A stretch of DNA of 27,055 nucleotides from a virus. Where the stretch lies: the IMG/VR virus record IMGVR_UViG_3300047481_001936, positions 1-27,055 of that record; one strand, given 5' to 3'. The notes beneath the pieces were generated by a model. It saw only the letters and a list, made by a program, of their open reading frames with translations, was not told the origin of the DNA and did no database searches. Below, in pieces: positions 7,031 through 20,866 of the stretch. Numbering within the stretch: position 1 is the stretch's first letter; every line of letters starts with the position of its first letter. Position numbers and translations under genes: made by a program.

Positions 7031-8962
7031 ATGAATGATATTAAATTGCCAACTCTTTATCAAGAGTTTATACACCTTTCTCGTTACTCACGCTGGCTTG
7101 AAACAGAAAAGAGGAGAGAAACATGGCAGGAAACTGTAAGTCGATATTTTAATTTCTTTGAAAGTCACCTCAAAGAAAAGCAAAATTTTATATTGACTTC
7201 AGAATTAAGAAGTGAATTAGAAACAGCAGTTTTGAATTTAGAAATAATGCCTAGCATGAGAGCATTGATGACTGCTGGAGAGGCACTTGACCGCGATAAT
7301 ACCGCAGGGTATAATTGCTCATATGTTGCAGTCAATCGTGTACGAGCATTTGATGAAATATTATACATACTCATGTGTGGCACCGGCGTCGGTTTCTCCG
7401 TCGAAAGACAATATGTTGAAAAACTTCCAACGATTGCGGAGGAATTTACAAACAGTGAAACCACTATTGTTGTCCAAGATAGTAAGGCTGGTTGGGCTAA
7501 GGCGTACAGGGAACTTGTTTCCTTACTTATTGGAGGCCAAATTCCAAAATGGGACATGTCAAAGGTTCGTCCTTCTGGCGCAAGACTTAAGACATTTGGT
7601 GGCCGTGCGTCCGGTCCGGGGCCATTGGAAGATCTCTTTAGATTCACAACTGACACTTTTAAAAAGGCTTCAGGAAGAAAACTCACTTCCATCGAATGCC
7701 ATGATATCGTCTGTAAGATTGCAGAAGTTGTCGTGGTCGGAGGTGTGCGACGATCTGCACTTATATCACTTAGTAATCTCACTGATGAACGGATGCGGGA
7801 TGCAAAGTCAGGGGCTTGGTGGAACGACAATCCGCAACGCGCATTGGCCAACAACTCAGTTGCTTACAAAGAAAAACCAGACATGGGCATTTTCATGGAG
7901 GAATGGGTTTCTCTCTATAAGAGCAAGAGTGGTGAGCGTGGTATCTTCAATCGTGACGCTTGCAAAAAGACTGTTGCTAAACTAGGTGATCGTCGTGATG
8001 CTGGTTATGAGTTTGGAACAAATCCTTGCTCAGAAATTATTCTTCGTGACCGTGAGTTTTGCAATTTAACAGAAGTTGTTGTTCGTTCCACAGATACTGC
8101 CGAAGATCTTGCTCGAAAAGTTCGTTTAGCAACAATTCTTGGAACATTTCAAGCATCACTCACAAACTTTCCATATCTTTCTAGCGAATGGAAAAAGAAT
8201 TGTGAAGAGGAATGTCTCTTGGGTGTGTCTTTAACCGGAATATTAGACAATGAAGACATGACTACGGATGTCATTAATCTAGAAAAGGGATTGGTAAAAC
8301 TGAAACAAATAGCAATAGATGTCAACAAGGAATTTGCAAAAAAGATTGGAATCAACCAAGCAGCAGCAATTACTTGTGTAAAACCATCAGGAACAGTATC
8401 ACAACTTGTTGATGCTGCATCGGGAATTCATCCAAGACACAGCCAATACTATGTTAGAACAGTTCGTGCAGATAGAAAAGATCCACTATGTCAAATGATG
8501 ATTGACCTTGGATTTCCACACGAACCATGTGTAATGAAACCCGATTCTGTCATGGTTTTCTCTTTCCCGATGAAATCACCGGATGGTTGTCTGACAAGAA
8601 ATGATTTAACCGCAATAGAACATTTACAACTTTGGTTAACTTATCAAAGGTTCTGGTGTGAGCATAAACCAAGCATAACAATCACTGTTCGTGAGAATGA
8701 ATGGATGGAGGTTGGTGCATGGGTCTACAAGCACTTTGATGAAATTAGCGGTATTTCATTCCTACCACACAGTGATCATAATTATCGCCAAGCACCCTAT
8801 CAAGAGTGCGGAAAAGAAGAACATGATTTACTTTTGGCAAAAATGCCAAACGGTGTGAATTGGTTGGATTTGATTAAATACGAAAAAGAAGACAAAACAT
8901 CAGGAACACAAACTTTTGCCTGTAGTGGCGATAAGTGTGAATTAGTAGATATTACTTCTTAG
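7031..8962 (+). CDS. nrdJ: Class II (adenosylcobalamin-dependent) ribonucleotide reductase
   Basis: This 643-residue reductase is of the monomeric ribonucleoside-triphosphate reductase type. The active-site NPCSEI (about residues 331-336) provides the radical-bearing Cys and the Glu. The first redox Cys is in YNCSY (about 94-98), its partner in EFCNL, and the C-terminal reducing pair in CSGDKC near the end. PSGTVSQL and GIHPRHS.YYVRTVRAD segments are typical of phage B12-dependent enzymes. No small radical subunit gene lies nearby, consistent with class II. AGGAG precedes ATG 7031 by 7 nt. The gene ends in an 11-nt tail-to-tail overlap with the next, opposite gene, with no hairpin terminator seen. 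It implies that the host makes or imports cobalamin. Confidence 0.93.
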   Translation: MNDIKLPTLYQEFIHLSRYSRWLETEKRRETWQETVSRYFNFFESHLKEKQNFILTSELRSELETAVLNLEIMPSMRALMTAGEALDRDNTAGYNCSYVAVNRVRAFDEILYILMCGTGVGFSVERQYVEKLPTIAEEFTNSETTIVVQDSKAGWAKAYRELVSLLIGGQIPKWDMSKVRPSGARLKTFGGRASGPGPLEDLFRFTTDTFKKASGRKLTSIECHDIVCKIAEVVVVGGVRRSALISLSNLTDERMRDAKSGAWWNDNPQRALANNSVAYKEKPDMGIFMEEWVSLYKSKSGERGIFNRDACKKTVAKLGDRRDAGYEFGTNPCSEIILRDREFCNLTEVVVRSTDTAEDLARKVRLATILGTFQASLTNFPYLSSEWKKNCEEECLLGVSLTGILDNEDMTTDVINLEKGLVKLKQIAIDVNKEFAKKIGINQAAAITCVKPSGTVSQLVDAASGIHPRHSQYYVRTVRADRKDPLCQMMIDLGFPHEPCVMKPDSVMVFSFPMKSPDGCLTRNDLTAIEHLQLWLTYQRFWCEHKPSITITVRENEWMEVGAWVYKHFDEISGISFLPHSDHNYRQAPYQECGKEEHDLLLAKMPNGVNWLDLIKYEKEDKTSGTQTFACSGDKCELVDITS

Positions 8963-9209
8963 TACCTTTTGTTCTACTTCTAATAATCTCGCGGATGTCC
9001 ATCTCTTCATCTTGATGGGCATCCGCTTGTTTATGTAATTTTTCTGCCTTTTCTTGGTTTCCTGCCTCTTTTGCCTTGACAGCATTATCACGAACAACAC
9101 TTACTTTTTTGGAATAAGTGTTTCCGAGTTTTCTTAACTCGCTTGTTGGCAGTTTCATTAATTCTGACTTTGGGTGACTTTCTTTTAAAAATGATGCGAA
9201 TGATTTCAT
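8952..9209 (-). CDS. Small helical late protein with T4-like capsid-targeting N-terminus
   Basis: This 85-residue, highly charged, mainly helical protein begins MKSFASFLKESHPK. The start resembles the capsid-targeting peptide of T4 internal proteins (MKTYQEFIAE followed by A), cut after Glu by the gp21 prohead protease; here the cut would be after LKE, before Ser. The rest is Lys/Glu/Ala-rich, as expected for a packaged internal protein. ATG 9209 has GAGGA 7 nt upstream and a CATAAATA late promoter at 9226-9233. It is the only - strand gene between the RNR and the resolvase, and its end overlaps the RNR by 11 nt. Function is inferred only from these similarities. Confidence 0.65.
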   Translation of the reverse strand: MKSFASFLKESHPKSELMKLPTSELRKLGNTYSKKVSVVRDNAVKAKEAGNQEKAEKLHKQADAHQDEEMDIREIIRSRTKGTKK

Positions 9210-9225
9210 AGTTTATCCTCAACTA

Positions 9226-9233
9226 TATTTATG
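9226..9233 (-). promoter_or_regulatory. T4-type late promoter (CATAAATA)
   Basis: The - strand reads CATAAATA, one mismatch from the T4 late consensus TATAAATA. The predicted start 6 nt downstream gives an 11-nt leader carrying GAGGA before ATG 9209. This is the same spacing as at the other late promoters of the window. Confidence 0.6.
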
Positions 9234-9250: not shown

Positions 9251-9258
9251 TATAAATA
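9251..9258 (+). promoter_or_regulatory. T4-type late promoter (TATAAATA) in front of structured RNA
   Basis: This is an exact TATAAATA on the + strand. The T4 rule puts the start 6 nt after the last A, at G9264, one base before a 13-bp stem-loop begins. The overlapping bases 9257-9264 read CATAAATA on the other strand, so the site could also fire toward the gene at 9209. Confidence 0.65.
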
Positions 9259-9264
9259 TTTATG

Positions 9265-9339
9265 ACCCACGCAACTGTGAGATTAACCACCCGAAGTTGA
9301 TGGGGGAGCTAAGACTCCAATCTCCGCAGTTGCGTGGGT
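9265..9339 (+). ncRNA. Candidate structured RNA (branched stem-loop)
   Basis: Bases 9265-9277 pair perfectly with 9327-9339 (13 bp, ACCCACGCAACTG). After a small internal loop (9278 against 9325-9326), 9279-9284 pair with 9319-9324 (GAGATT with AATCTC). The interior can form two arms: a hairpin at 9305-9318 (GGAG, 6-nt loop, CTCC) and a C-rich/G-rich arm at about 9287-9304. By count 41 of 75 bases are G or C, well above the surroundings. There is no open frame or tRNA fold. A late promoter places the transcript start at the stem base, and TTTT follows at 9344-9347. It could be a stable small RNA, or a structured leader of the resolvase gene if transcription continues. Confidence 0.5.
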
Positions 9340-9350
9340 AAAGTTTTATG

Positions 9351-9358
9351 CATAAATA
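9351..9358 (+). promoter_or_regulatory. Possible late promoter (CATAAATA) at a leaderless start
   Basis: CATAAATA ends 5 nt before ATG 9364, so a T4-type late start (6 nt after the last A) would fall on the A of that ATG. There is no Shine-Dalgarno sequence before the gene, which fits a leaderless transcript. The site is one mismatch from consensus. Confidence 0.4.
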
Positions 9359-9363
9359 TTAGT

Positions 9364-9924
9364 ATGATTATTGCAGGAATTGATTATAGTTTAAATGGAC
9401 CGGCAATTTGTGTAGCCAATACGGATAAATCTTTTTGTTTTGATAATTGTTCTTTTTATTTTCTAACAGATGTAAAAAGAAATGCAAAAACATTTTTAAC
9501 AAACATCCATGGCGAAGCATTTGAAGACTACAATGAAGATTGTGAGAGATACGACACATTATCCGATTGGGTGATGCGCGTTTGTTCTGGTTGCGAACAG
9601 ATAGCACTTGAGGGTTACGCTTATGGAGCACAGGGTAGGGTGTTTCATATAGCAGAAAATACTGGTTTATTGAAGTATAAAATTTATCAAACAAGAACAC
9701 CATTGACAATTATCCCACCAACAGAAGTCAAAAAATATGCAACCGGCAAAGGAAATTCCGATAAGCAAAAAATGTATAGTTCTTTTGTTTTGGATACAAA
9801 TATTTTTCTAAACACAATAATGACACCGGACAAGAAAGAAATTTCAAGTCCGGTGTCAGATATTGTAGATTCTTTTTATATTTGTAAGATACTTTATAAC
9901 AAAATTTTAGACTCTTCTTCTTGA
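9364..9924 (+). CDS. RuvC-like Holliday junction resolvase
   Basis: This 186-residue RNase H-fold nuclease opens MIIAGIDYSLNG, where D7 is the first catalytic acid. IALEGYAYG at about residue 80 gives the catalytic Glu, and SPVSDIVDSFYICK near the C-terminus gives the last acidic residues. VKKYATGKGNSDKQKM is the usual basic segment of phage RuvC-like proteins. It would resolve branched DNA before packaging, the role of gp49 in T4. I chose ATG 9364 because RuvC proteins begin directly with the first strand; an in-frame GTG at 9334 lies inside the RNA stem. Its last 18 nt overlap the opposite gene at 9907, and its 3' end contains a perfect inverted repeat. Confidence 0.85.
   Translation: MIIAGIDYSLNGPAICVANTDKSFCFDNCSFYFLTDVKRNAKTFLTNIHGEAFEDYNEDCERYDTLSDWVMRVCSGCEQIALEGYAYGAQGRVFHIAENTGLLKYKIYQTRTPLTIIPPTEVKKYATGKGNSDKQKMYSSFVLDTNIFLNTIMTPDKKEISSPVSDIVDSFYICKILYNKILDSSS
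9821..9858. terminator. Perfect 11-bp inverted repeat inside the resolvase 3' end
   Basis: TGACACCGGAC (9821-9831) and GTCCGGTGTCA (9848-9858) are perfect complements around a 16-nt loop. The element is GC-rich for this genome and sits 49 nt beyond the stop of the converging - strand operon, with U-rich sequence on both sides. It probably terminates that operon and perhaps transcripts from the + side too, while also encoding resolvase residues. Confidence 0.55.
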
Positions 9925-10533
9925 ACTCACTAAAGAAGCAATCGCAAGTAAACCTATAGCACCGGGTGAGGGTATTGCATTGACACCAAATCCACAAAAA
10001 TCAATGAGATTACCCTGTGTGGTTCCACCAGTTGCACTTACTGCTTCGAATGCAAATCTTGTCATATTTCCAATCGAAACTATTGAACCAGTATGAAACT
10101 GCCATGCAGTCTCGTCTGCACTGAATGTATTTTGATATAGGATTGTGTCATCCCCTCCACCATAGGTCTGATCTGTTCCCAAATCTATGATTGAAAGTTG
10201 CATAACATCAACACCATATCTTCCTCTGTGTGCAAAATGCCAATTTATTGTATTATTGTCACCCAACCCATTTACATGTTGGTAAAGTGTAGATGCATAA
10301 TTTGCATTTAGTTCTGCAAAAGAATTGCCTTCATATGCGGGTGTTCCTAAAAATCCATCAGACCATATTTCTAATGTATTGTCTGGTGCAGTTGTTGCCC
10401 AATTTAGTGTTGGATCTGAACCAGAATAGAAACCATAACCCCAAACAGTAAAATCCTCAAAACCACCATTAACTAGATCTGCCGAGCATGTTGTAGATAG
10501 ACTGATAGCCAGCAAAAGTGGTAACTTGTTCAT
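9907..10533 (-). CDS. Secreted protein with PEP-CTERM-like sorting tail
   Basis: This 208-residue protein has an N-terminal signal peptide (MNKLPLLLAISLSTTCSA, likely cleaved before D). A beta-rich body begins LVNGGFED, a start common in PEP-CTERM surface proteins and carbohydrate-binding-like domains. The last ~23 residues are PSPG, a hydrophobic segment (AIGLLAIASLV) and SSRRRV. That tripartite tail is what exosortase systems recognise to process and anchor proteins at the cell surface. The PSPG variant is one I associate with Planctomycetota. Start ATG 10533 shares its A with the upstream stop (TGATG). It may coat the infected cell or act as an adhesin, but that role is inferred. It is very unusual next to phage late genes and may be of host origin. 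Confidence 0.75.
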   Translation of the reverse strand: MNKLPLLLAISLSTTCSADLVNGGFEDFTVWGYGFYSGSDPTLNWATTAPDNTLEIWSDGFLGTPAYEGNSFAELNANYASTLYQHVNGLGDNNTINWHFAHRGRYGVDVMQLSIIDLGTDQTYGGGDDTILYQNTFSADETAWQFHTGSIVSIGNMTRFAFEAVSATGGTTQGNLIDFCGFGVNAIPSPGAIGLLAIASLVSSRRRV

Positions 10534-11252
10534 CAAACTCTCTTTCTTGTTGAAAATAGTTGCGGAATCGCAAACAATGTCAATGTACCAACCGATGGTA
10601 CATTGTTTTGTGGTAAGTAGAATCCAGTTTCTATGCCGTAATATTCCCCGAACCCATAGTTTGTTCCTAGAGCAATGGTCGTAGAGTATTCGTCAAATGG
10701 CAATGCACTTGGCGTAAAGAAAAATGTATGCATGTCTGGGTTGACTGCTTGAATAGCGGGTACAAAATCTTGAGGCACTATATTTTTTGTAATCAATTGT
10801 GCAGGATTTATTTTAACTTGTTGTGTTTCTTCTACAAGTGTTGGTTCTTGCGGTTTTATTTCATCTTTAAATCTTGCAACTTCGTCCTCAAGACGATATG
10901 GCCTTGTTTCCTCTTTTTGATCAATTTTCTTTTTTGGAATATAAGCAAATTGTAATTTTTGAAAAGGAGCAAGTGCTTGTTTATTTTTTTCTTCTGCTTT
11001 TTCTTCTTCTTTTGTTTCTTCTAATTGTGTTTTTTGTAACTCTTTTGCAGAAGAAACTACAGAACCAAATGAAGAAATGTAAGAAGCAGCATTCTTTATT
11101 ATTTGTTCGCCGGCCAATGTTAAAGAAACACTCATTACTATTGTCATAGTATGCAGTGATTTCTCTAATTGTTTTACTTTTTGTTTTGCGTCGTCACATG
11201 CCTTTGCACATGTTGTACAACCGCTGTGTTTTTGTTCCGATACTTTAGCCAT
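10533..11252 (-). CDS. Membrane protein with Lys/Glu-rich middle and PEP-CTERM-like tail
   Basis: This 239-residue protein has a Cys-containing N-terminus (SGCTTCAKACDD), a hydrophobic helix at about residues 33-50 and a long Glu/Lys-rich, probably coiled or disordered stretch (about 75-165). A beta-like region rich in Phe, Tyr and Gly follows. The last ~24 residues are VPSVG, a hydrophobic run (TLTLFAIPQLF) and STRKRV, a degenerate copy of the PEP-CTERM tail seen in the next gene. There is no classical signal peptide. GGGGAGGA precedes ATG 11252. The two genes overlap by one base and are co-transcribed, so they may act together at the cell envelope. No family recognised. Confidence 0.65.
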   Translation of the reverse strand: MAKVSEQKHSGCTTCAKACDDAKQKVKQLEKSLHTMTIVMSVSLTLAGEQIIKNAASYISSFGSVVSSAKELQKTQLEETKEEEKAEEKNKQALAPFQKLQFAYIPKKKIDQKEETRPYRLEDEVARFKDEIKPQEPTLVEETQQVKINPAQLITKNIVPQDFVPAIQAVNPDMHTFFFTPSALPFDEYSTTIALGTNYGFGEYYGIETGFYLPQNNVPSVGTLTLFAIPQLFSTRKRV

Positions 11253-17929: not shown

Positions 17930-20848
17930 TCACTTCTTAGACCTGTTATGACTCTTGCTTACAACTCTAAGATTTTTCATTGAGTTGTTGTTTGGATTGC
18001 CGTCTTTGTGGTCAACATCTCGGCCATCTCCCTTACGAATACGCCCCAAGCGTTTCATAAGACGGTTTACTTTGTTTCTTTTTGCTCTATTCTTTTTTTG
18101 TTTTTCTGTTCCTTGATAATTATCATATTCTTTTCTGTAATTTCTTTTCTCTGCTACAAAGTTTTTTGCAAAGGAAATATAGAACTCTTGTAAATTCTTT
18201 TCTACTGGAATTTCGTGTTCTGTATTTCCAATTTTTACTGTGTTGTAGAAACCAGATTCTACTTTACCAAATTGAGTAAAGTCTATGTCTTGTGTGGAAA
18301 TCATTTCTGGTTCAAGTTCTAAAAATTGCATCAAAGAGTAAATGTCTCCACCTATTTCATTTTGAATTCCGTCCAGTAATTGTGATGTTTCTATGGAACT
18401 TATTACATTTTCTGTTATTAAACCAGACAACACTGGATTATGAGAAAATGATTCCTTTGCTATTTTCTTGGGATTCAGAACCATTGATATTACACTCCAG
18501 TATGAGTAAACTTTTCTTCCGGTTTTTCTTCTTATTGCTTCTGCTTCAGATGATTTAACAGAACTGCTCTTAAATCTTATGACAAAATTTAAAGCATCTG
18601 CAACTTTATCTGCATACTCTGGTGTTATTTGTGATAATGATGTTTCTGTTCCATCCTTGTTCAATGAAAGAACATACTGAGCAACAGCGGGACTAATTTT
18701 TTTCGGATTTCCTGTATCGAATTTTGCCATTCCGGTAAGTGCTTCAAATACAAATGCTTTTCGGAAATCTTTACTTTGAACGAGTAGATCTTGTAATTCT
18801 TTTCTTGCTTCTTTGTGTAGTTTGTCATATTTAATAATTTCTTTGTCTTGTCCTTCCAATTCACCACCAGTAAGGAAATCCGTTATGTCTCCTCCTGCGG
18901 TTCTTCTTGGAGAATTGATCAAATTCTTTAATGATTTAATTAGCGATTCTGCTCTTTTCTTTATTTTTGGTTCTAATTTTTTCTTATCCATTCCTTCAAG
19001 AGCAGCATAAATTGTTGCGGTTGCCTCGCCTCCTGCTTTACCGGACATCAACTGAGATGGTCCGCATTTTACGGAGACACCGACAACTTGACCAGAGTTC
19101 ATGTCTCTGAACAATATGTCAGACTTTGGAGTATTATCAACTCCTCCATAGTTGGTCCAGAACTTACTTAATTTTTCTGATTTATTTGCACCATAATGAA
19201 TTGCAGCAAAATTTGCTCCGGGATAACTTGTAGAGAGTTGTTCTGAAATTGCTTGTAAAGTTCTTTGGGAAGATTCACCCAAAGTTGTGCTATTTGCCAA
19301 ATATTCTGCTGCTTCCGGGGAAATAAGTCCCTCTTTGACTTGTTTTTCTAGAGGAATGCCCATTGCCTCGTTGAATGCGGCAACAACACCGAATTCCATG
19401 TCAACCGCGGCGTGATCTGAGTCTGGGTAAGTAGATTTACCAGTAGATCTTGTTGGTGGTGGTTTTTGTGGAACCATTGCTGCCTGAACGGCTTGATCTT
19501 TTTGCGTTTCTTGTGCTTCTGCTTTTTTATTTCTTTTTTCTTTTCCAGAATCAGCACCTTCTACTTTACCGAACAACTCAATAGATGTTGGTGTGTTTAC
19601 AAAGTCTTCATCCTGTAAAATTTGCTCTGCTGCACTTTGTGTCATCTTGTCTGGTGGGACCAATATTCTATGGTTTGCTTGCAGAGATGTTTTTCTTATT
19701 ATCATTTTGTTTTCATCATCATCCTGAACAATCAAAACTTGACCAGAGAAAGGATTTGATTGTCTAACTGCATCATCTTTTGCTCTTTGTTTTCTTTTTC
19801 TTGCATTTTGATCTCTTCTTTTTTCTTGTTGAGATTTTTGTTCAATTAACATTTTAAAAGCATGAAAAAGTGGACTTTCTCTAAGTGGTGTTTTTCTGTT
19901 CATTTGTGCAAGTCTTTTTGATTCACCAGAAACGACTTTCGGTAAAATTTGTTTTACCATTCTTGTTAGGATTGGTCTTCTTTTGTTTATTGCTGTGTCG
20001 ATTCTTGCTCTTTGAGCATATGATAACTTTTTCCAATTTCCCTTAAACAGTCTTTTTCTGAGAGTTGTTTTTATTTGACTTGTTGCTCTTTTCTTGAGTT
20101 GTTTGATATTTCTTCTTCTCTTTTTTCTTAACTTTCTCAGAAATGCTCTTCTTTTTGCTGTTCTTCTTGCAGACCTTGCAAGTTTCATTCTTCCCTGTGC
20201 CGAAACAGTTTCAGTCAAAACTTCTTGATTGTTTGCAAATTCTTGAATTTCTTCAAATGTAAATGAAGGAAGAGAAACATAATCTTCCTTAAGTTTCATT
20301 CCTTTTCTTACATCTTTGAATAATTTTGTTGCTTGTGTTTTTGTGACATGACCGGGTAATCCCATCCTAAATGCCTCAAAATTTCCCTCAGCAGCAGCTT
20401 TTCTTTGCTTTGTTGCAGACATTCCAGCAAGACCTTTTGCTTGCTCTCCTCTTTCTCCTCCAGCAGTTACTACCTTAAAATTTTTGAATTTGAAATCACC
20501 TTTTTTCTGGTAGTGCGGAACTTTATCGAATATAGATTCTCTGTCAGAACCAGTGACTACTGTAACATCTTCATATCCTTGATCACTAACATGTTTTAAA
20601 GCATGAAATGGTGATATGATATCATCCGAAACATGAACATTCGGTGTCCCAAGAACAGATGCCATGTGCTTTGCTTTTGTTTTTGGATCTAATGGATTTT
20701 TCTTTGGATCTTGACTTCTGCTACCATAAATTCTGTGTTCAGAACCAGTTTGTGAAGCTAATTCCATAACTTTCTGAGCAAGCAGATGATGACCAGATGT
20801 TGGTGGGTTGAATCTTCCAAATGTTATTACAATTGATTTTTTTGCCAT
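17930..20848 (-). CDS. Giant fusion: nucleotidylyltransferase, basic module, nuclease-like domain, HNH
   Basis: This 972-residue protein has at least four parts. Residues 1-190 are a nucleotidylyltransferase: FGRFNPPTSGH holds the (H/T)xGH motif and VTGSDRESIF the second conserved site, as in NMN- or cytidylyl-transferase-like phage enzymes. Residues ~210-320 are extremely Arg/Lys-rich. At about 570-640, PKSDILF and VGVSVKCGPSQLMSG match a PD-(D/E)xK-like phage nuclease pattern. The last 40 residues (DVDHKDGNPNNNSMKNLRVV) are an HNH-type motif. TFEEIQEFANNQEVLTETVS and ESPLFHAFKMLIEQ are possible cleavage linkers. ATG 20848 with AGGA 8 nt upstream is preferred to the GTG at 20854, and a TATAAATA promoter precedes it. 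It could be cut into separate proteins. Confidence 0.75.
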   Translation of the reverse strand: MAKKSIVITFGRFNPPTSGHHLLAQKVMELASQTGSEHRIYGSRSQDPKKNPLDPKTKAKHMASVLGTPNVHVSDDIISPFHALKHVSDQGYEDVTVVTGSDRESIFDKVPHYQKKGDFKFKNFKVVTAGGERGEQAKGLAGMSATKQRKAAAEGNFEAFRMGLPGHVTKTQATKLFKDVRKGMKLKEDYVSLPSFTFEEIQEFANNQEVLTETVSAQGRMKLARSARRTAKRRAFLRKLRKKRRRNIKQLKKRATSQIKTTLRKRLFKGNWKKLSYAQRARIDTAINKRRPILTRMVKQILPKVVSGESKRLAQMNRKTPLRESPLFHAFKMLIEQKSQQEKRRDQNARKRKQRAKDDAVRQSNPFSGQVLIVQDDDENKMIIRKTSLQANHRILVPPDKMTQSAAEQILQDEDFVNTPTSIELFGKVEGADSGKEKRNKKAEAQETQKDQAVQAAMVPQKPPPTRSTGKSTYPDSDHAAVDMEFGVVAAFNEAMGIPLEKQVKEGLISPEAAEYLANSTTLGESSQRTLQAISEQLSTSYPGANFAAIHYGANKSEKLSKFWTNYGGVDNTPKSDILFRDMNSGQVVGVSVKCGPSQLMSGKAGGEATATIYAALEGMDKKKLEPKIKKRAESLIKSLKNLINSPRRTAGGDITDFLTGGELEGQDKEIIKYDKLHKEARKELQDLLVQSKDFRKAFVFEALTGMAKFDTGNPKKISPAVAQYVLSLNKDGTETSLSQITPEYADKVADALNFVIRFKSSSVKSSEAEAIRRKTGRKVYSYWSVISMVLNPKKIAKESFSHNPVLSGLITENVISSIETSQLLDGIQNEIGGDIYSLMQFLELEPEMISTQDIDFTQFGKVESGFYNTVKIGNTEHEIPVEKNLQEFYISFAKNFVAEKRNYRKEYDNYQGTEKQKKNRAKRNKVNRLMKRLGRIRKGDGRDVDHKDGNPNNNSMKNLRVVSKSHNRSKK

Positions 20849-20866
20849 ATTCACATTCCTGTATCA

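Follow-up and report, generated by a model that had tools for sequence, protein, structure and literature searches.

The window analysed here is the whole of a 27,055-base virus record, and the same sequence was found in a 156.7-kb contig (IMGVR_UViG_3300042197_002147), with 8,558 of the 8,558 compared bases identical. The window encodes a T4-like gene set with UvsX, a DnaB-like helicase, a primase, a thymidylate synthase, a ribonucleotide reductase and a RuvC-like resolvase, and homologues of gp32 and gp33 are encoded in the 156.7-kb contig. The virus is a T4-related virus of aquatic bacteria. The ribonucleotide reductase gene was named nrdJ by sequence reading alone. The gene for the RuvC-like Holliday junction resolvase (9364..9924, + strand; phrog_159, E 7e-29) lies downstream of the element described below, which is preceded by an 85-aa gene on the - strand (8952-9209) with its own leftward late promoter. 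Inside the 3′ end of ruvC, near a convergent gene (9907-10536), an inverted repeat with 17-nt arms (88%) and a 4-nt loop at 9821-9858 may be a terminator within coding sequence. Elsewhere in the window, a single reading frame on the - strand (17930-20854) encodes a 974-aa protein with cytidyltransferase-type matches in its N-terminal part and HNH endonuclease-like matches in its C-terminal part.

An exact T4-type late promoter, TATAAATA, is located at 9251..9258 on the + strand. The box of T4 late promoters lies at -13 to -6, and the predicted +1 is thus G9264. The hairpin begins at 9265, one base after the predicted start, as the original prediction had claimed. Its arms pair perfectly over 13 bp (9265-9277 with 9327-9339), followed by a U.G pair, a bulged C at 9325 and a 6-bp helix (9279-9284 with 9319-9324), so the stem, P1, is effectively 20 bp long, with a 20-nt 5′ arm at 9265..9284 and a 3′ arm at 9319..9339. 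P1 was identified by folding, by an inverted-repeat search and by covariation. P1 encloses two weakly paired arms. One, P2, lies around CCC/GGG; the other, P3, has the sequence GGAG(CTAAGA)CTCC and occupies 9305..9318. The 13-bp perfect stem, the 6-bp inner helix and the two interior arms that had been described were all present at 9265-9339. A 24-nt core, AACCACCCGAAGTTGATGGGGGAG, spans 9285..9308 and includes the motif CCCGAAGNNGAT at 9290..9301. The covariance model match to the structured RNA extends over 9264..9343 on the + strand, from the predicted 5′ end at G9264, and the model gave 84.5 bits on the + strand and 14.8 bits on the - strand. The minimum free energy of the hairpin was -39.9 kcal/mol compared to -19.8 +/- 3.1 kcal/mol for shuffled sequences, which is far outside chance (z -6.6). 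The hairpin had also been called GC-rich in an AT-rich genome, and its GC content was 54% compared to 36% for the identical 156.7-kb contig.

Two other parts of the original prediction stood only in part. The TTTT said to follow the stem is present at 9344-9347, but it lies four bases past the stem, is not kept in relatives and gives no terminator signal. The placement of the hairpin between opposed late promoters was loosely worded. A leftward late promoter of the 85-aa gene, CATAAATA, does exist at 9226..9233 on the - strand, but the promoter of the RNA itself is back to back with it, and a second rightward CATAAATA is found at 9351..9358 on the + strand, 5 nt before the ruvC ATG (9364). The latter predicts a leaderless ruvC mRNA.

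The sequence NATAAATA occurs 65 times in the 156.7-kb contig (GC 36%), and 26 of these sites are within 40 nt before the ATG of an open reading frame. The distances from NATAAATA to the ATG in this contig formed two peaks, one at 15-24 nt, where a Shine-Dalgarno-like stretch is the rule, and one at exactly 5 nt (5 sites). With the latter spacing, late mRNAs in these phages would be leaderless. Of 94 ruvC loci, 35 had a late promoter 5 nt before ruvC, whether or not the RNA was there; the RNA was present at 16 of the loci. Among the 86 late-promoter-like sites of the 156.7-kb contig, only the RNA site had a stem of at least 8 bp starting at +1 to +5. The stem at this site was 13 bp compared to 7 bp at the next best late site, and random positions gave at least 13 bp in 4 of 20,000 trials. 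The homologue of the late co-activator gp33 in the identical contig (G001:1632-1853) matched phrog_254 with an E-value of 1.8e-20. When one guessed profile and one guessed protein were used as queries for the late sigma factor gp55, no match was obtained.

Homologues of the RNA belonging to four further sequence types were found in 14 other IMG/VR contigs, and a fifteenth contig carried the window's own type (W), so that the family comprises the window and 15 contigs and falls into five sequence types. The L003/L004, L070/L071 and L074 members were found upstream of ruvC by way of the RuvC protein, before the motif was used. L003 and L004 (RuvC protein search; 84-85% identity) have the same layout as the window, with a largely different P1 and an identical 24-nt core, and L070/L071 and L074 came from an alignment-based search. 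Pattern scans of 2.9 million viral contigs added L161, L166, L169, L177, L183 and L185, which are of one type, and L151, L175 and L182, which are of the L074 type. All pattern matches with a stem of at least 11 bp were family members, and the remainder were mostly coding or had no comparable stem.

The minimal unit of the family consists of [T/C]ATA[A/G]ATA, 5 nt, a G at +1, the long stem P1 and the apical or junction motif CCCGAAGNNGAU. All five types have the layout of a late transcription unit, with a TATAAATA-like box at the same position and spacing, a predicted start about 6 nt downstream and a G at this +1, and in all of them the stem starts at +1 to +3. P1 ranges from 14 to 21 bp, and the fold energy z-scores ranged from -5.0 to -6.1 when the five types were compared. 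An extra arm inside P1 is present in the W, L003 and L074 types, and the L070 and L161 types are simple hairpins. The P3 of the window is shared with the L003 type only; L074 has a different one and L070 and L161 have none. The five types share the motif at 9290..9301, and in each of them GAAG and the adjacent bases are largely unpaired. The flanking C's and GAU take part in different pairings from type to type, which makes the predicted fold around the motif provisional. The L074 type was missed by a covariance model of the other four types and was assigned to the family by motif, promoter geometry and position only. Judged from its sequences, the family is an uncatalogued structured RNA family with an unusually exact promoter geometry.

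In an alignment of four types (A5), 97% of the cells were paired and 7 of the 17 stem pairs had changed on both sides. No shuffled control out of 500 scored as high, sliding the partner by 1-3 columns left 35-45% of the cells paired, and RNAalifold, unprompted, returned the same helix. Four sequences are few, so the covariation is strong in kind and small in number. The original prediction of a structured RNA had implied that homologous regions should carry compensatory changes in the stem; such changes were found at the homologous loci, together with a conserved loop and a constant distance from promoter to stem. After bulged bases had been taken out by hand, the P1 pairs over the five types comprised 83 Watson-Crick pairs, 10 G.U pairs, 7 of them inside the helix, and 0 A.C pairs. 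A DNA palindrome or an RNA from the - strand would give A.C as often as G.U, and the count thus favours an RNA from the + strand, which agrees with the direction of the promoter. We consider it highly probable that the element is an RNA.

All members are located between nrdJ and ruvC wherever the length of the contig allows a view, and in L069 the RNA may lie beyond the contig end. The neighbours vary. The RNA is preceded by the 85-aa reverse gene in the window and by a methylase-like gene and another gene in L149 (L074 type), and a metallophosphoesterase-like gene lies between the RNA and ruvC in L177 and L183 (L183:10348-11106); the gene names in these three contigs are from sequence reading. 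A separate late promoter, GATAAATA, precedes the ATG of the inserted gene by 5 nt, and in L183 ruvC, now about 1.15 kb from the RNA, has its own CATAAATA 5 nt before the ATG. No second late promoter was seen before ruvC in the L074 type. When the presence of the RNA was mapped on a RuvC tree, three changes were needed, two of them forced by well supported branches. The L074 type branches separately, next to L083 and L075, which have no RNA at this place; the pattern fits transfer or repeated loss.

The claim that the hairpin matches no known RNA held up in database searches. No Rfam 15 family reached its gathering score, no tRNA or tmRNA was found with ARAGORN or Rfam, and the best sub-threshold match in Rfam (Ms_IGR-8, E 0.2, 16.3 of 44 bits) was judged to be due to chance. 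A search of 50,697 phage records did not find the RNA, and cultured phages gave no match by DNA. RuvC matches were found in pf16, DLP6 and Mosig, and the stretch before ruvC in Mosig, read by eye, is without such a hairpin. No RuvC relative was found in GTDB genomes, and of the 61 stretches picked up there by a promoter-plus-motif scan, not one had a comparable stem at +1. No convincing second copy was seen in the identical 156.7-kb contig or in 28 other records; the RNA occurred only in G001 and G003, both times at ruvC, and the other occurrences of CCGAAGNNGAT inspected in large records were not of this hairpin type. No description of the motif was found in the open-licence papers searched. 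Peptide coding was considered from a reading of the sequences and rejected, as not every type retains the AUGs of the hairpin and the L074 motif has none.

We propose, with about even confidence and from sequence comparison, that the element is a separate late-transcribed structured RNA whose 5′-terminal clamp stem would present the motif to a partner in trans. The phage-encoded RNA would form its own late transcription unit, probably transcribed with the late sigma factor and the co-activator of which a gp33 homologue is present. The transcript would start with a G at the foot of the P1 hairpin (14-21 bp), and the 5′-terminal stem could protect it from 5′-end-dependent decay. The 3′ end may be formed by processing just past P1, or the transcript may read through. 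The exposed GAAGNNGA would then be recognised in trans by a protein or another RNA, and the RNA could serve as a late decoy or guide. The unit stays put while genes insert on either side, which shows independence from any particular downstream gene. Against a separate RNA, the stem is always within about 40 nt of some start codon, the absence of a terminator after the stem means that the transcript may simply continue into the next gene, and the family is rare, with its five types in 15 contigs plus the window. A more specific version, which we offer tentatively and think rather doubtful, is that the family represents a novel kind of phage RNA with a regulatory role late in infection. It would be a hairpin module, carrying a late promoter of its own, that T4-like phages exchange at one fixed locus, and its CCCGAAGNNGAU tip would capture one specific protein or RNA of phage or host origin at late times, perhaps as part of the gene 32 circuit. 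Apart from tRNAs and mRNA operators, few structured RNAs have been described in T4-like phages. The present family offers an exactly placed promoter, a 5′ end that can be predicted, covariation in the stem and a short motif that does not vary, and is directly testable as an 80-nt RNA. If the action in trans is true, a widespread group of phages would have an RNA regulator of the late phase.

The 5′-terminal stabiliser hairpins of the ompA type have a stable stem 0-2 nt from the 5′ end of an mRNA and need no conserved loop. The present RNA is like them in the placement of its stem at the 5′ end, but differs in that its tip is the most conserved part. The manA, wcaG and PhotoRC-II motifs (RF01745, RF01761, RF01717) of T4-like cyanophages and marine metagenomes, which have been described as probable 5′ UTR elements of metabolic or photosynthesis genes, are also structured RNAs of aquatic T4-like phages that comparative and covariation analysis brought to light (PMC2864571). 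In contrast to them, and matching none of them, the present RNA starts exactly at a late promoter and lies by nrdJ and ruvC. In T4 gene e, a leader hairpin and late promoters are likewise found close before a gene (PMC3014915). The T4 hairpin, however, covers the ribosome site and the late promoters are downstream of its 5′ strand, whereas here the promoter is upstream of the whole hairpin and the start region is outside the stem. The gene 43 and gene 32 operators of T4 and RB69, which bind a replication protein, share with the present RNA a phage hairpin or pseudoknot with a conserved tip and variable flanks (PMC3014915). In contrast, the present RNA is not an operator beside its own gene, its loop differs from the UAAC of the gene 43 operators, and protein binding is known for the operators but hypothetical here.

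A cis-acting 5′ leader is a plausible alternative, although we put it below even. Late transcripts from the upstream promoter would then run into the next gene, either ruvC or an inserted gene, with the hairpin stabilising the mRNA or governing its translation, and the downstream late promoter would give a second, leaderless and hairpin-free mRNA. The closeness of the stem to a start codon, with no terminator between, speaks for such a leader, as does the stem 0-2 nt from the 5′ end, a known type of mRNA stabiliser. The tandem late promoters around the hairpin also recall T4 gene e, whose late promoters yield mRNA without the inhibitory 5′ strand (PMC3014915). However, the downstream gene is exchanged in L177 and L183 with the RNA unchanged, there is no clear Shine-Dalgarno sequence between the stem and the ATG, and the start codon and ribosome site are outside the stem, which ends at least 16 nt before the ATG. 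Furthermore, ruvC is served by a 5-nt late promoter of its own, in relatives without the RNA as well, and a pure stabiliser would need no conserved loop. The suggestion in the original prediction of a leader regulating the resolvase was weakened in particular, since another gene splits the RNA from ruvC in two contigs and ruvC keeps its own late promoter in L183. A DNA-level element, such as a cruciform or single-stranded DNA hairpin that the neighbouring resolvase acts on, or that functions as an origin or packaging mark, would explain why a long inverted repeat adjoins a Holliday junction resolvase gene and why the AT-rich promoter arms pair partly too. We consider it quite improbable, as all 10 mismatches in P1 are G.U when read on the + strand, with 0 A.C, the distance to the + strand promoter is fixed, the unpaired motif is conserved and the element stays apart from ruvC when genes are inserted. 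The least probable reading is a transcription terminator of the upstream thyX-nrdJ operon. Several RNA-less relatives, among them L073, L077, L089, L091 and L095, do have a terminator-like hairpin and a T-run before ruvC, but no U-run directly follows the stem in any of the five types, and no terminator was called here. The late promoter immediately before the stem, which a terminator would not need, and the conserved loop and core speak against this reading too.

The separate late RNA could also act as a decoy of the gene 32 translational operator, by titrating a repressor of the mRNA for this ssDNA-binding protein or by pairing with that mRNA. T4 gene 32 is under autogenous translational control via RNA structure (PMC3014915). 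In the 156.7-kb contig, the motif CCGAAGNNGAU occurs also in the gene 32 leader and its complement CUUCGGG adjoins the gene 32 ribosome site. The leaders of this contig and of G009, a 123-kb relative, both carry UCCGAAGGAGAUCUUCGGG before the start, and their sequence CCGAAGGAGAUCUUCGGG contains the motif and a 7-nt complement to it. However, the motif in the leader is half of a perfect hairpin and contains the ribosome-site-like stretch GAAGGAGAU, so the likeness may be due to chance. The proposal comes from one long RNA-bearing contig, and in G009 the leader is present although the RNA model gave no match there. As the two extra motif matches in the genome are also not significant alone, we hold such a decoy to be very unlikely. 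Immediately ahead of the ssDNA-binding protein gene, the gene 32 leaders themselves (L240:1890-1956, and L248 from G009) contain a pair of conserved hairpins, GGTGGGGAGTTCCCACC and CCGAAGGAGATCTTCGG, which gave no DNA match in the 50,697 phage records. These hairpins are a possible autogenous operator unlike the T4 pseudoknot, and a similar first hairpin, with GGGAGTTC, is found in the gene 32 leader of S-PM2.
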